A DNA stretch of 64,000 bases from Actinomadura syzygii (GTDB taxonomy: Bacteria; Actinomycetota; Actinomycetes; Streptosporangiales; Streptosporangiaceae): positions 248,001 through 312,000 of the forward strand of contig NZ_VSFF01000011.1 in NCBI RefSeq assembly GCF_008085905.1, in the 5' to 3' direction. The position numbers and the translations under genes were made by a program. The notes beneath the pieces are model-generated. The model searched no databases and had not been told where the DNA came from. It was given only the letters and a program-made list of their open reading frames with translations. Below are positions 1 through 55,691 of the stretch, one piece after another (positions within the stretch are counted from its first letter, which is position 1; every line of letters starts with the position of its first letter).

Positions 1-794
1 GTCTCCGGGCCGTACTCGCGCAGCGCCCGGCACACCGCGCCGCCGTACCGGCTCGGCCGCTGCGGCAGCAGCTCCTCCGCGAGGTCCAGCAGCGCCATCG
101 TCCGCCGCCTGCCCAGCTCGAAGATCGCCGCGATCGCGCCCTCCCCGCGCCGCCGCGCCAGATCGAGCAGCTCGTCCTCGCTCTGCCGGTCCCGGCCCGG
201 CGCCGCGACCATCGCCCGGCGCGCCGCCCGGCCCGCCTCCCGGTGCCGCGCCAGCGCCTCCGCGATCCGCGGCTGCCGCGCCGCCCACGTCTCGATCACC
301 GGATTGCGATGGGACGGGATCAGCATCTCCAGATCGCCCTCGTCGCACCGCGCGGCGACGAGATCGTCCAACCCGACCGTCAGCGACGGATCCTCAAGGT
401 CGATCAACTCCTCAACGGCGTCGAACCACTGCGCGCCCTCCTCGGCGTACCGGCGCAGCGGCACCGCCGCCTCCCGCCTGCTCAGCCGCACGAGGTCCGC
501 CAGCACGCCCAACGCCAGATCGACCCGCCACTCGTCCGCGTCCGCGTGGTCCGCCGGATCGAACAGATGGGCCGCCACCGGCCCCGCCGGCAACTCCAGA
601 TCGACCATCAACCGGGCGTAGTACAACCTCCGCGACTCGCACTGCGGGTCCCACCGCGGATCGCGCCGCACGCAGTCGTACACGTACTCGCCCGCGCCCC
701 GGCGGTCCGCCGCGCGCCGCGCGGCCCTCCCGAGCCCCCGCTGCATCTGACCGTGCAGCGTACCCGCCGATTCCAACACGACCTCGTTATTCAC
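1..794 (-). CDS. HEAT-repeat-like protein, C-terminus beyond the window (partial)
   Basis: An open minus-strand frame runs from a GTG at 794 to the window edge (about 264 codons with no stop). It encodes a helical, Leu/Ala/Arg/Glu-rich protein with short repeated helix pairs such as LLDLAEELLP and ADLVRLSRREAAVPLRRYAEEG. That pattern suggests a HEAT/ARM-like solenoid, but I do not recognise a named family and no catalytic motif is visible. The start is uncertain: the GTG sits inside a perfect inverted repeat (CCTCGT-TATTC-ACGAGG, 782-798) that may be an operator or a chance dyad, and no good ribosome-binding site precedes it. The minus-strand ABC exporter lies upstream but is separated by a structured repeat element, so co-transcription is doubtful. 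Confidence 0.6.
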   Translation of the reverse strand, partial: MNNEVVLESAGTLHGQMQRGLGRAARRAADRRGAGEYVYDCVRRDPRWDPQCESRRLYYARLMVDLELPAGPVAAHLFDPADHADADEWRVDLALGVLADLVRLSRREAAVPLRRYAEEGAQWFDAVEELIDLEDPSLTVGLDDLVAARCDEGDLEMLIPSHRNPVIETWAARQPRIAEALARHREAGRAARRAMVAAPGRDRQSEDELLDLARRRGEGAIAAIFELGRRRTMALLDLAEELLPQRPSRYGGAVCRALREYGPE

Positions 795-847
795 GAGGCC
801 AGAATGCGCACGCGACCAGATAACGGGCAAGTGTTTTAGAGGCTGTG

Positions 848-989
848 TTTGCCCAGGGGGGCGACCCCCTGGAACCCCCGTTGCTCGCGGCGGGCCGCTT
901 CTCGTTCCGCGTTCGCGGCCCGGGAAGCGGCCCGCCGCTCGGCGGGTCGTGCGGCCTCCGGCGCTGGGGCGCCTCCGGCCGCACGACCC
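848..989 (+). repeat. Structured intergenic repeat element, copy A (three hairpins)
   Basis: Three consecutive perfect hairpins are visible. Hairpin I is CCAGGGGG-GCGA-CCCCCTGG (853-872), with a GNRA-type loop. Hairpin II pairs CGGGCCGCTTC (891-901) with GAAGCGGCCCG (924-934) around an inner CCGCG-TT-CGCGG (907-918). Hairpin III pairs GGGTCGTGCGGCC (944-956) with GGCCGCACGACCC (977-989). The same architecture recurs near 23.83-24.02, 41.21-41.29 and 55.62-55.69 kb. It fills the gap between the exporter stop (1007) and the next minus-strand gene. Open frames reading through it look spurious. Confidence 0.8.
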
Positions 990-1006
990 GTGGGGCCGGT
1001 CAGCGG

Positions 1007-2788
1007 TTAGAGGGTTCGTTGGGCTATCCAGGAGGCGTGGAGGTCGGCGTAGACGCCGGGTTGGGCCACCAGGTCCGCGTGGGGGCCTCGTTGGACTATG
1101 CGGCCCGCGTCGAAGACGATCACCTCGTCGGCCGACTCGGCGGTGGAGAGGCGGTGGGCGATGGAGATGGCGGTTCGGCCGCGGGTCGCGCCGTCCAGGG
1201 CGCGCTGGATGCGGACCTCCGTCGCCGGGTCCACGGCCGAGGTCGCCTCGTCCAGGACCAGGAGGTCCGGGTCGGCGACGTAGGCGCGGGCCAAGGCCAC
1301 GAGCTGGCGCTCGCCAGCCGAGAGGGACTCGCCGCGCTGGCCGACCGGGGTGTCCAGGCCGCTGGGGAGGCCGTCCAGCCAGTCGGCGAGGCCCAGCTCC
1401 GTCAGGGCGAGGACGAGGTCGGCGTCGGACGCCTCCGGACGCCCGTACCGGACGTTGTCGCCCAGGGAGGCGTCGAACAGGAAGCCGTCCTGGGGGACCA
1501 TGACGATCCGCTCCCGCAGGGACGAGAACCGGACCCGGTCGAGCGGCACCCCGTCCACCAGGACGCGGCCCGACACCGGGTCCATGAGGCGGGTGAGGAG
1601 CTTCGCGAACGTCGTCTTGCCCGAGCCCGTCTCCCCGACGACCGCGACCCGGCTGCGCGGCGCGATGTCGACCGTGACGTCGTGCAGGACGGGCGGCCCG
1701 CCCGGATACGCGAACCCCACCGACTCGAACCGGACCTCGATCGGACCGCGCGGCAGGGTCTCGCCGTCCGCGCCGGGGTCGGCGACGTCGGGGACGGTGT
1801 CCAGCACGCCGAGCACTCGCCGCCATCCGGCGATCGCGTTCTGCGCCTGGTTGAACACCTCCGTCGCGGTCTGCATCGGGCTGACGAACAGCGTCACGAG
1901 GAACAGGAACGCGATGAGCTCGCCCGCCGTCAGGTGGCCGCCGATGCCGAGCAGCGTCCCGGCGATGACGACCGCCGCCGTCGCGGCGGCGGCGACCAGC
2001 TCGCTGACCGGGAACGTCAGCGCGACCATGGCCTGGGCGCGGGACTGGGCGTCGCGGTGCGCGTCGACGGTCTCGTCCACCCGGCGGCCGGTCCGCTCCT
2101 CGGACGCGTACGCGCGGATCACCGGGGCGCCGACGACGGACTCGCTGACCGCCGCCAGCAGGTCGCCCATCCGCTCCCGCACCCCCATGTAGGCGGTGGA
2201 CAGGATCCGCTGGAAGCGCCGCAGCGCCCACCCGAGCGGCACGAACGCCACCCACACCAGCAGCGCGAGCTGCCACGAGTAGACGAGCATCAGCACGCTC
2301 GCGACGATCAGCTGCCCGATCGACACGATGAACATCAGCCCGCCCGACTGCATGAACTGGCTGATCTGGTCGACGTCGCCCGTGACCCGCGACACCAGCG
2401 AGCCGCGCTTCTCGCTGCTCTGGCTGAGCATCGACAGGTCGTGGACGTGCCGGAACGCCTTCGTCCGCAGCGCGGCGAGGCCGCCCTCCGACGTCCGGTA
2501 CAGCCGGACGTTCATCAGGTACGCGCACACGGCCGTCACCAGGACGGCCGCCGCGCAGAGGAGCACCGCCGTCCGGATGAAGGCGAGGTCGGGGCCGTCC
2601 GTCCCGCCGAGGCCCTTGTCGATCGTCTGCTGGACGGCGATCGGCACGACCACCCGTCCGGCCGTGGACACGAGCGCGAGCCCGAGCGTCCCGGCCAGCC
2701 CGGCGGTGAACTCCGGGCTCATCCGGATCCCGCGGCGCAGCGTGCTGAGGGCGCCGTCGGAGGTCCCCGTCTCGATCGTCATGCTCAT
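1007..2788 (-). CDS. ABC exporter half-transporter, second subunit (MdlB-like, permease-ATPase fusion)
   Basis: This 593-residue type IV ABC half-transporter has six predicted N-terminal membrane helices (about residues 20-310) followed by a nucleotide-binding domain. The domain shows Walker A GETGSGKTT, signature LSAGE, Walker B LLVLDEATSAVD with the catalytic Glu, and an H-loop IAHRLS. It should couple ATP hydrolysis to export of an unknown, probably hydrophobic, substrate. The ATG at 2788 overlaps the upstream subunit's TGA in an ATGA (2785-2788), so the two are translationally coupled and very likely form a heterodimer. The intact catalytic Glu here, against Asp in the partner, is the usual arrangement of heterodimeric exporters with one degenerate ATP site. 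The substrate cannot be told from sequence. Confidence 0.93.
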   Translation of the reverse strand: MSMTIETGTSDGALSTLRRGIRMSPEFTAGLAGTLGLALVSTAGRVVVPIAVQQTIDKGLGGTDGPDLAFIRTAVLLCAAAVLVTAVCAYLMNVRLYRTSEGGLAALRTKAFRHVHDLSMLSQSSEKRGSLVSRVTGDVDQISQFMQSGGLMFIVSIGQLIVASVLMLVYSWQLALLVWVAFVPLGWALRRFQRILSTAYMGVRERMGDLLAAVSESVVGAPVIRAYASEERTGRRVDETVDAHRDAQSRAQAMVALTFPVSELVAAAATAAVVIAGTLLGIGGHLTAGELIAFLFLVTLFVSPMQTATEVFNQAQNAIAGWRRVLGVLDTVPDVADPGADGETLPRGPIEVRFESVGFAYPGGPPVLHDVTVDIAPRSRVAVVGETGSGKTTFAKLLTRLMDPVSGRVLVDGVPLDRVRFSSLRERIVMVPQDGFLFDASLGDNVRYGRPEASDADLVLALTELGLADWLDGLPSGLDTPVGQRGESLSAGERQLVALARAYVADPDLLVLDEATSAVDPATEVRIQRALDGATRGRTAISIAHRLSTAESADEVIVFDAGRIVQRGPHADLVAQPGVYADLHASWIAQRTL

Positions 2789-22364: not shown

Positions 22365-23824
<1,460 letters not shown>

Positions 23825-23825
<1 letters not shown>

Positions 23826-24016
23826 CCCAGGGGGGCGACCCCCTGGAACCCCCGTTGCTCGCGAGGGGCCGTGTTTGCCCAGGGGGGCGACCCCCTGGAA
23901 CCCCCGTCACTCGCGAGGGTCCGTTTCCCGAGTCCGCGTTCGCGGCTCGGGAAACGGCCCCTCGCTCGGCGGTTCGTGCGGCCTCCGGCGCTGGGGCGCC
24001 TCCGGCCGCACGAACC
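23825..24016 (+). repeat. Structured intergenic repeat element, copy B (with duplicated first hairpin)
   Basis: Hairpin I occurs twice with a 52-nt period: CCAGGGGG-GCGA-CCCCCTGG at 23827-23846 and 23879-23898. Hairpin II pairs CCGTTTCCCGAG (23921-23932) with CTCGGGAAACGG (23946-23957) around the same CCGCG-TT-CGCGG core as copy A. Hairpin III pairs GGTTCGTGCGGCC (23971-23983) with GGCCGCACGAACC (24004-24016). Stem bases differ from copy A with both sides changed together. It begins at the gltD stop codon and could serve as its terminator. Confidence 0.85.
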
Positions 24017-24079
24017 GTGGCCCCGGGTCAGGTTCGATGCCAGGGTCCTTTCGTCGGTGCCATGTGTCAGCATCGGGGG

Positions 24080-30910: not shown

Positions 30911-30983
30911 TGCCCCGAGTGGGATTCGAACCCACACTTGATGGTGTTTGAGACCATTTCCTCTGCCGTTGGGATATCGGGGC
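30911..30983 (-). tRNA. tRNA with CAA anticodon (Leu) but class I shape
   Basis: Minus strand, 73 nt without encoded CCA. Acceptor GCCCCGA/TCGGGGC, D-arm with a 3-bp stem and GG in the loop, anticodon stem ATGGT/ACCAT with loop CTCAAAC (anticodon CAA, UUG codon), variable loop CAAGT of only 5 nt, T-arm GTGGG-TTCGAAT-CCCAC, discriminator A. Leu tRNAs normally have a long variable arm, so the identity of this tRNA is uncertain. A perfect hairpin GTCCGG-ATAAA-CCGGAC (30988-31004) lies just upstream in its transcription direction. Confidence 0.85.
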
Positions 30984-38407: not shown

Positions 38408-38497
38408 TTACACCCTGCCTTTCCTGGGGGGCGACCCCGGAGGCCGGGAGACACCGGCCTCAGCGAAACTGTCGTGGTCGCAGACTAGAGTCCTCGT

Positions 38498-41188
<2,691 letters not shown>

Positions 41189-41207
41189 CCCAGGACAACC
41201 GCCGAAA

Positions 41208-41290
41208 GACGGGCCGTTTCCCGAGCCGCGAACGCGGACCGGGAAACGGCCCGTCGTGCGCCACGGGGGTTCCAGAGGGTGCCCGCCTGG
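41208..41290 (-). repeat. Structured intergenic repeat element, copy C (reverse orientation)
   Basis: On the forward strand GACGGGCCGTTTCCCG (41208-41223) pairs perfectly over 16 bp with CGGGAAACGGCCCGTC (41240-41255), enclosing CCGCG-AA-CGCGG, the same core as in copies A and B read on the other strand. A degenerate hairpin I, CCAG-a-GGG-tg-CCC-gc-CTGG (41272-41290), follows, and between them runs the complement of the GGAACCCCCGT spacer. It starts 19 nt after the polA stop. Confidence 0.8.
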
Positions 41291-41410
41291 GTGTATTCAC
41301 CTCCCTGGATAAACAACCATCTTGGGGGTAGGCGAGCGGGTGTCCGTGGATGTCCGGAGGGTCGTACGCTGTCCACCGGGTCCTGTCAGGTCGCTCGGCG
41401 GGGGGGTAGC

Positions 41411-55620: not shown

Positions 55621-55691
55621 TCTGGGGGACGACCCCCAGACCCCCGAGGGGGAGGCCCGAAGATCCTCGCTTCGCTGCGGTCATCGGGCCT
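55621..55691 (+). repeat. Structured intergenic repeat element, copy D
   Basis: TCTGGGGG-ACGA-CCCCCAGA (55621-55640) is hairpin I with loop ACGA. A CCCCCGAG spacer follows, then hairpin II AGGCCCGA (55653-55660) with TCGGGCCT (55684-55691). It separates the cupin stop (55681) from the phosphatase start (55607) in the minus-strand operon; the cupin stop codon lies in the loop of hairpin II. Confidence 0.65.

Follow-up and report, generated by a model that had tools for sequence, protein, structure and literature searches.

The 64,000-nt stretch of the Actinomadura genome analysed here (the window) carries three copies, A, B and C, of one intergenic element built around three hairpins. Copy A lies between two minus-strand genes and runs against both, copy B is co-directional behind a gltD-like gene, and copy C is reversed behind a DNA polymerase I gene; gene calls were made with a home-made script and identities were assigned by Pfam searches on six neighbour proteins. 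An initial annotation made from the letters alone had proposed four copies and a possible fifth, of which A, B and C are indeed versions of one three-hairpin element, but site D and the fifth site are not. The features are as follows.

842 to 1006, plus strand: copy A, with leader, hairpins I to III and tail (sequence and folding)
842 to 851, plus strand: leader of copy A, GCTGTGTTTG (leader consensus of 187 contexts)
853 to 872, plus strand: hairpin I of copy A, CCAGGGGG-GCGA-CCCCCTGG, followed by AACCCCCG up to 880 (sequence and folding)
887 to 938, plus strand: hairpin II of copy A (folding)
942 to 991, plus strand: hairpin III of copy A (folding)
992 to 1006, plus strand: short tail of copy A, reaching the stop codon of a minus-strand ABC-transporter gene whose end is at 1007 (comparison of tails between copies)
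23826 to 24018, plus strand: copy B overall, a cut unit and then a complete unit
23826 to 23869, plus strand: first unit of copy B, hairpin I plus an incomplete 5' arm of hairpin II, the unit being cut inside II
23867 to 23877, plus strand: leader of the complete unit of copy B, GGCCGTGTTTG
23879 to 23898, plus strand: hairpin I of the complete unit of copy B
23913 to 23965, plus strand: hairpin II of copy B
23969 to 24018, plus strand: hairpin III of copy B
41199 to 41300, minus strand: copy C overall, degenerate
41208 to 41255, minus strand: hairpin II of copy C, behind the DNA polymerase I gene ending at 41188
41272 to 41290, minus strand: mutated hairpin I of copy C
55622 to 55646, plus strand: cousin hairpin at site D (CTGGGGGACGACCCCCAGACCCCCG), from a separate family that heads another element in loci L169 and L191

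Copy B had been read as a single copy (23825-24016); the GGGGG-GCGA-CCCCC hairpin, the long hairpin II and hairpin III are all there, but they belong to two units, the first of which starts immediately 3' of the TAG (23823-23825) of the gltD-like gene. In copy C hairpin II is kept and hairpin I mutated, and III has left no recognisable trace. The similarity of site D (55621-55691) is limited to the look of its hairpin I (CTGGGGGACGACCCCCAGACCCCCG), and since D is absent both from the listed covariance-model matches and from the matches to the 26-mer of hairpin I, we rejected it as a family member and kept it as a cousin. In two other species (L169, L191) the cousin hairpin CTGGGGGRCGACCCCCAGACCCCCG stands at the head of another multi-hairpin element, which occupies one and the same gene end, that of DUF349. 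At the proposed degenerate fifth copy (38417-38440) neither the hairpin of the family nor that of the cousin was matched at three mismatches. Over the whole window the 26-mer has three matches at up to three mismatches, compared to none in 100 shuffles, and RNA folding of copy A gives z = -7.2 on either strand. In an Rfam search of the window the element reached no curated score, and a tRNA gene (30911-30983, minus strand) was the sole match above threshold.

The element family is non-coding. A unit of about 143-176 nt consists of a leader (GCTGTGTTkG), hairpin I, a long-armed hairpin II, the adjoining hairpin III and a short tail, which is often present after III and reads approximately GTG-N-GGCTGAGGTTC. 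The leader consensus over 187 contexts is GCtGTGTTkG, and hairpin I, CCAGGGGG-GCGA-CCCCCTGG followed by AACCCCCG, is nearly invariant. By inspection, the ends of units in tandem arrays are CTGTGTTkG and CGTG.

The family extends far beyond the window. The genome from which it comes (G000; 9.7 Mb, 27 contigs) holds 33 copies of hairpin I, 31 of them exact 26-mers and two with two mismatches, while forms with one or three mismatches number zero. A covariance model, for which 21 copies from G000 were used, re-found those 21 at full length and strong score together with some twelve weaker copies of variant or mosaic type, and matched 13 of 40 genomes (its own included), every one of them an Actinomadura. 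When up to two mismatches are allowed, the 26-mer occurs in 50 of 60 Actinomadura genomes, whose copy numbers range from 0 to 52 (reversed control: 0); among the matches listed, one-mismatch forms exist in other species, for example with an ACGA loop. In a phylum-wide sample the exact 26-mer occurred in one of 396 genomes, namely G000. A named scan for hairpin I returned at least 112 stretches, which comprise at least 102 from Actinomadura, at least seven from Frankia or Pseudofrankia and at least three from Streptosporangiaceae metagenome records. The 29-mer of hairpin I is also present in Frankia and Pseudofrankia (L070, L089, L090, L105, L107, L127 and also L080), and in the six Frankia-type records among the matches listed hairpin I is followed by other hairpins, e.g. 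GGGGGCTTCGCCCCC, not by the Actinomadura hairpins II and III. Viral contigs gave no exact 26-mer match and copy A was without match at E 1e-3 in plasmid and phage collections; carriage by phage or plasmid was rejected on the basis of these empty searches.

The initial annotation had based its case on stems that differ between copies on both sides at once. Such covariation exceeds the expectation: 13 of 43 pairs show a double-sided change in the 21 copies from G000, compared to a shuffle mean of 5.3 (none of 500 shuffles reached 13) and to 1-4 in slid controls. In a wider set of 90 matches (82 distinct rows; 84 sources chosen from 252), whose model-fitted alignment leans towards the model, the count is 27 of 43 (shuffle mean 19.0, 0 of 500; slid controls 8-14). 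Double changes are absent from the pairs of hairpin I in both sets, and in hairpins II and III the sequence varies between copies while pairing persists. The arms of hairpin II had been called entirely different yet self-complementary; the paired differences were confirmed, but among A, B and C the arms are not entirely different (e.g. GCGGCGGGCCGC vs GCGAGGGTCCGT), and entirely different arms occur between species and subfamilies.

The kind of pairing matters for the interpretation. In 61 distinct arm pairs of the common-type hairpin II, taken from 126 parsed copies with a parser that discards copies whose arms are not mostly paired, Watson-Crick pairs fill 875 of 915 cells, six cells are G-T, ten are other and 24 are A-C, eight of which share one position in related sequences and are not independent. 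The longer type of hairpin II (nine arm pairs) has one G-T and two A-C, and 49 arm pairs of hairpin III contain 494 Watson-Crick cells out of 539, no G-T, 11 A-C and 34 other. G-T pairs are thus rarer than A-C mismatches, so that the wobble steps expected under selection on a top-strand RNA are scarce. The earlier statement that covariation shows selection on, or generation by, structure therefore needs to be narrowed: the compensatory changes are real, but because copies are replaced in blocks and G-T is rarer than A-C (6 vs 24 cells), they are no simple proof of RNA selection at each site.

Next to structure, the element is characterised by its position. From 188 fetched copies, six of which fall within a called gene, 148 were left after dropping Frankia and metagenome loci, duplicates and further array units, and 130 of these were usable, i.e. 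had genes called on both sides and lay outside genes. The 130 sites comprise 67 convergent ones, 45 tandem ones in which hairpin I is turned towards the upstream stop, 15 tandem ones in reverse and three divergent ones, compared to 7.6% convergent, 56.3% tandem and 36.1% divergent among the background intergenic bases of the same loci. In G000 alone (n=24) the respective numbers are 14, 5, 4 and 1. In 94 of 112 cases the distance from hairpin I to a stop codon is at most 25 nt. The position bias for which the initial annotation had looked to convergent sites and gene 3' ends is hence present at both. Its remark that copies occur in both orientations relative to flanking transcription is true, with A and C in the minority orientation, but orientation is not free, as tandem sites are polar (45 vs 15, p = 1.3e-4). 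The fact that 15 of 60 tandem copies, A included, are reversed indicates that ending the upstream gene is not the sole reason for placement. Opposite orientations were seen at the same convergent gene pair of different species, behind the uracil-DNA glycosylase gene (L009 vs L064) and at further pairs (L015 vs L072; L019 vs L162; L088 and L104 vs L094 and L155).

The contact with the neighbouring genes sometimes reaches into their last codons. TAG stands directly before CCCAGG in 39 distinct genes, 11 of which end in cysteine (TGT-TAG) compared to 0.8% of 834 background genes, and on the side of hairpin III 12 of 79 converging genes end in threonine (background 3.6%). From the excess of these two gene ends we conclude that the element sometimes supplies the stop codon. 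With regard to the suggested bidirectional terminators, the positions (67 of 130 convergent, three of 130 divergent) and two exchanges against native hairpins, described below, speak in favour, but there is no T-tract around copy A, where a scan of window positions 600-1300 returned no terminator-like site. We consider the element a probable transcription terminator, which at convergent sites would serve both strands.

Comparison of G000 with a close relative (G010), whose matched stretches are mostly 92-97% identical (one stretch of 684 nt: 87%), revealed filled and empty sites. The element is present in one species only at 13 of 32 loci, 12 of the 32 having entered the comparison because it is present in both genomes. 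At 11 further sites of the relative, G000 has a whole, cut or decayed element at five and none at six (L230, where its sequence diverges immediately 3' of the stop, L232 plus, L241, L254, L256 and L258). At 12 further sites of G000, seven are empty in the relative, two are shared, one of them on the basis of only a few bases at the end of a contig, and three are without valid counterpart (L008, L014, L017). Four of the 13 empty counterparts contain a native hairpin with a perfect stem of 9-15 bp, which was reached by 0 of 300 shuffles at L266, L267 and L277 and by 13 of 300 at L275; the other nine are without a clear one. At L267 and L277, i.e. at two of the 13 one-sided loci, the strong native hairpin of the empty counterpart is missing from the filled site, at L275 the element junction lies inside the native hairpin, and at L266 the native hairpin is kept downstream. 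A target-site duplication was readable at none of the 13 one-sided sites, where most flanks are too different to tell. The DUF349 gene, present in 59 of 60 genomes searched, illustrates the patchiness across the genus: behind it the element occurs with an exact hairpin I in eight genomes and with a mutated one in five, and the cousin in two, while no element was seen in the remaining 44, one of which ends 27 nt past the stop. The eight exact copies all point the same way, and their first unit or piece is separated from the stop by 3-4 nt.

The copies of one genome resemble each other more than they resemble their counterparts. When hairpins II and III were compared, in 13 of 17 rows the nearest copy was one of the own genome, and in four it came from the other genome, once from the same locus and three times from elsewhere; without three rows that use truncated or wrongly cut copies, the own genome accounts for 12 of 14 and the same locus for one of 14. 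In rows of complete copies, elements at shared sites are 78-89% identical (II plus III, gaps counted). Stem II is moreover flanked by marks of the species, with TTGCTC or TCACTC before and TCGG after it in 12 of 24 copies of G000, and TTGGTC before and TCCT, TCCG or TC after it in six of 11 copies of the relative. In this one species pair, copies within a species thus appear to undergo concerted evolution. Three same-locus pairs have not been rewritten (L016/L237, L015/L260 and L020/L151). In L016/L237 (L016 5112-5255), which lies outside the 17-row count, stem II carries two double changes, both compensatory, and none on a single side, a pattern that would be in keeping with the use of one arm as template for the other; hairpin I is damaged, and hairpins I and III carry unpaired changes. 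The L015/L260 pair is also alike, with uncompensated changes in stem II.

Elements were also found layered upon each other. A piece cut inside hairpin I precedes 20 of 187 distinct contexts, and in 23 tandem pairs the upstream unit is cut between the linker of hairpin I and the end of II in nine and in III in two, the others being complete units head to tail with III directly or nearly abutting the next leader. Head-to-tail arrays of two or three units with a spacing of mostly 143-176 nt are seen at L077, L114, L158 and L100. This layering fits copying from the leader end that stalls at stems. We conclude that the three-hairpin family at gene ends is real, mobile and concertedly evolving. Among the papers listed by full-text searches of an open-access library, no description of the element was seen, and the 14-mer of hairpin I was not found there as text. 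Text searches find no Actinomadura in the RepRanger paper (PMC12306157) and no Actinobacteria, Frankia or Streptomyces in PMC3733652.

Two candidate movers were searched for. A linked RAYT-type transposase, for which the initial annotation had suggested a check, was not found: the Y1_Tnp domain has no match in G000 (5 of 14 control genomes were positive), and it is present in 16 of 60 Actinomadura genomes without correlation with copy number (rho -0.03, p 0.84), being not found in 12 of the 16 genomes with at least 20 copies (G000 and 11 others). RVT_1 matched in 22 of the 60 genomes, in 20 of them over the cut-off, and is likewise uncorrelated (rho -0.09, p 0.48) and not found in 11 of the 16 copy-rich genomes, G000 included; neither domain was found in nine of these 16, again including G000. 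Both the RAYT (Y1) transposase and a reverse transcriptase were thus rejected as movers. In view of the empty viral, phage and plasmid searches and of the missing link to Y1 and RVT_1, we tentatively favour re-copying by host replication or repair, with a transposase of another kind as the next candidate.

As a whole, we consider it probable that the family is a mobile, terminator-like element with insertion at 3' ends, copying from the leader end, re-invasion and joint rewriting. The element would copy itself into gene 3' ends, above all between convergent genes; copying would most likely start at the leader end and break off at the hairpins, which would yield the 3'-truncated units; and new copies would re-invade old sites, whereby the copies of one species would be rewritten together. 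That this copying is template switching or gene conversion by host enzymes, without a dedicated transposase, is a tentative proposal that we advance with some reserve. A more far-reaching version, which we regard as rather doubtful, is a transposase-free hairpin parasite, i.e. a portable gene ending that would bring stop codons for one or both sides together with a two-way terminator, displace native terminators and be copied leader-first by replication or repair, its stems being kept close to perfect through the use of one arm as template for the other. Each species would in this way recast dozens of its gene endings in a sequence of its own.

Several other explanations were weighed against the mobile terminator-like element. 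A MITE, i.e. a non-autonomous derivative of a DNA transposon whose transposase acts in trans, could account for the fairly conserved leader end, for insertion at otherwise empty sites and for the patchy distribution of 0 to 52 copies in 60 genomes, but it is unlikely in view of the varying 5' junctions, of the lack of a terminal inverted repeat by inspection and of a readable target duplication at one-sided sites, and of the fact that no autonomous copy was noticed in the loci examined. We consider it quite unlikely that the element is SINE-like and copied via RNA, with a bottom-strand transcript that would fold in the order III-II-I and whose reverse transcription into a gene end would start at the 3' end of the transcript, on the side of the leader, the enzyme dropping off at the hairpins and leaving 3'-truncated units. 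Cut units in the listed tandem pairs do start at the side of hairpin I and are without the side of III, and A-C, which is G-U in a bottom-strand RNA, exceeds G-T by 24 to 6 in the common hairpin II and by 11 to 0 in III. However, the wobble count was rejected as proof of such an RNA owing to the eight A-C cells at one position, which are not independent, and to the preference of the parser for paired arms, and RVT_1 shows no correlation and was not found, as given above, in 11 of the 16 copy-rich genomes, nine of which have neither RVT_1 nor Y1.

Ordinary terminators that are inherited vertically, with selection on RNA pairing at each site as the origin of the compensatory changes, would fit the placement at 3' ends and convergent sites and the two double changes without a single one in stem II of L016/L237. 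This reading is very unlikely, since close relatives differ in the presence of the element at 13 of 32 loci, copies are closer to those of their own genome than to the same locus, hairpin I hardly varies even though other stems would do as well, stem II arms show six G-T vs 24 A-C in 915 cells, and the same-locus pairs include unpaired changes (hairpins I and III of L016/L237) and uncompensated ones (stem II of L015/L260). Finally, a REP/BIME-type element that depends on a RAYT (Y1) transposase for its movement, whether still present or recently lost, is highly improbable despite intergenic palindromes in tens of copies, a conserved short leader before the hairpin and strand polarity, since Y1_Tnp was not found in 12 of 16 copy-rich genomes and is uncorrelated over 60 (rho -0.03), the GTAG tag is absent and the unit is about threefold too long.

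If the mobile terminator-like element is the right explanation, a copy-rich Actinomadura genome owes dozens of its gene 3' ends to a selfish repeat, not to locally evolved terminators, and a gene ending, sometimes including its stop codon, is swapped within the divergence time of close species. The element would also account for spurious short reading frames in Actinomadura, such as the peptides pointed out in the initial annotation.

Among known systems, Rho-independent and bidirectional terminators are stable hairpins right behind stop codons and are favoured between convergent genes. In contrast to these, the element is without a T-tract around copy A, has a sequence common to dozens of loci and is present or absent between close relatives. 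Bacterial MITEs are short, non-coding mobile repeats; the Actinomadura element differs from them in that it is without terminal inverted repeats (by inspection) or readable target duplications.

The initial annotation had also considered a REP-like mobile palindrome. According to the passages on REPs in PMC8266576, a REP is a palindrome of 20-50 nt after a conserved tetranucleotide, mostly GTAG, and the REP/BIME/REPIN elements with their TnpA-REP (RAYT) are, as described there, similar to ours in being many non-coding, intergenic, presumably non-autonomous and strand-polar DNA palindromes. Mobility held true, as judged by filled and empty sites, patchy distribution and concerted evolution, but a strict REP, with Y1 and a GTAG-tagged unit of 20-50 nt, did not. 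The Actinomadura element packs three hairpins into about 143-176 nt and bears no GTAG, and Y1 was not found in G000; it favours gene 3' ends, brings its own stop codons and evolves concertedly with changed arms. It is therefore outside the REPs by unit size, tag and Y1, and has in common with them the many intergenic copies. The GC clusters and the repetitive or double hairpin elements of mitochondria, as far as covered by the relevant parts of PMC4478555 and PMC2800124, are likewise gene-less mobile hairpins with merging and shuffling of clusters and tandem insertions. The likeness is one of analogy only, since our element resides on a bacterial chromosome, has a fixed order of three hairpins, one of them nearly invariant, and is tied to gene 3' ends. 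Taken together, the sites at which it is present, absent, layered or decayed provide a natural series that could reveal the movement of a hairpin element and the concerted change of its stems, questions that are likewise posed by REPs and by the hairpin elements of mitochondria.
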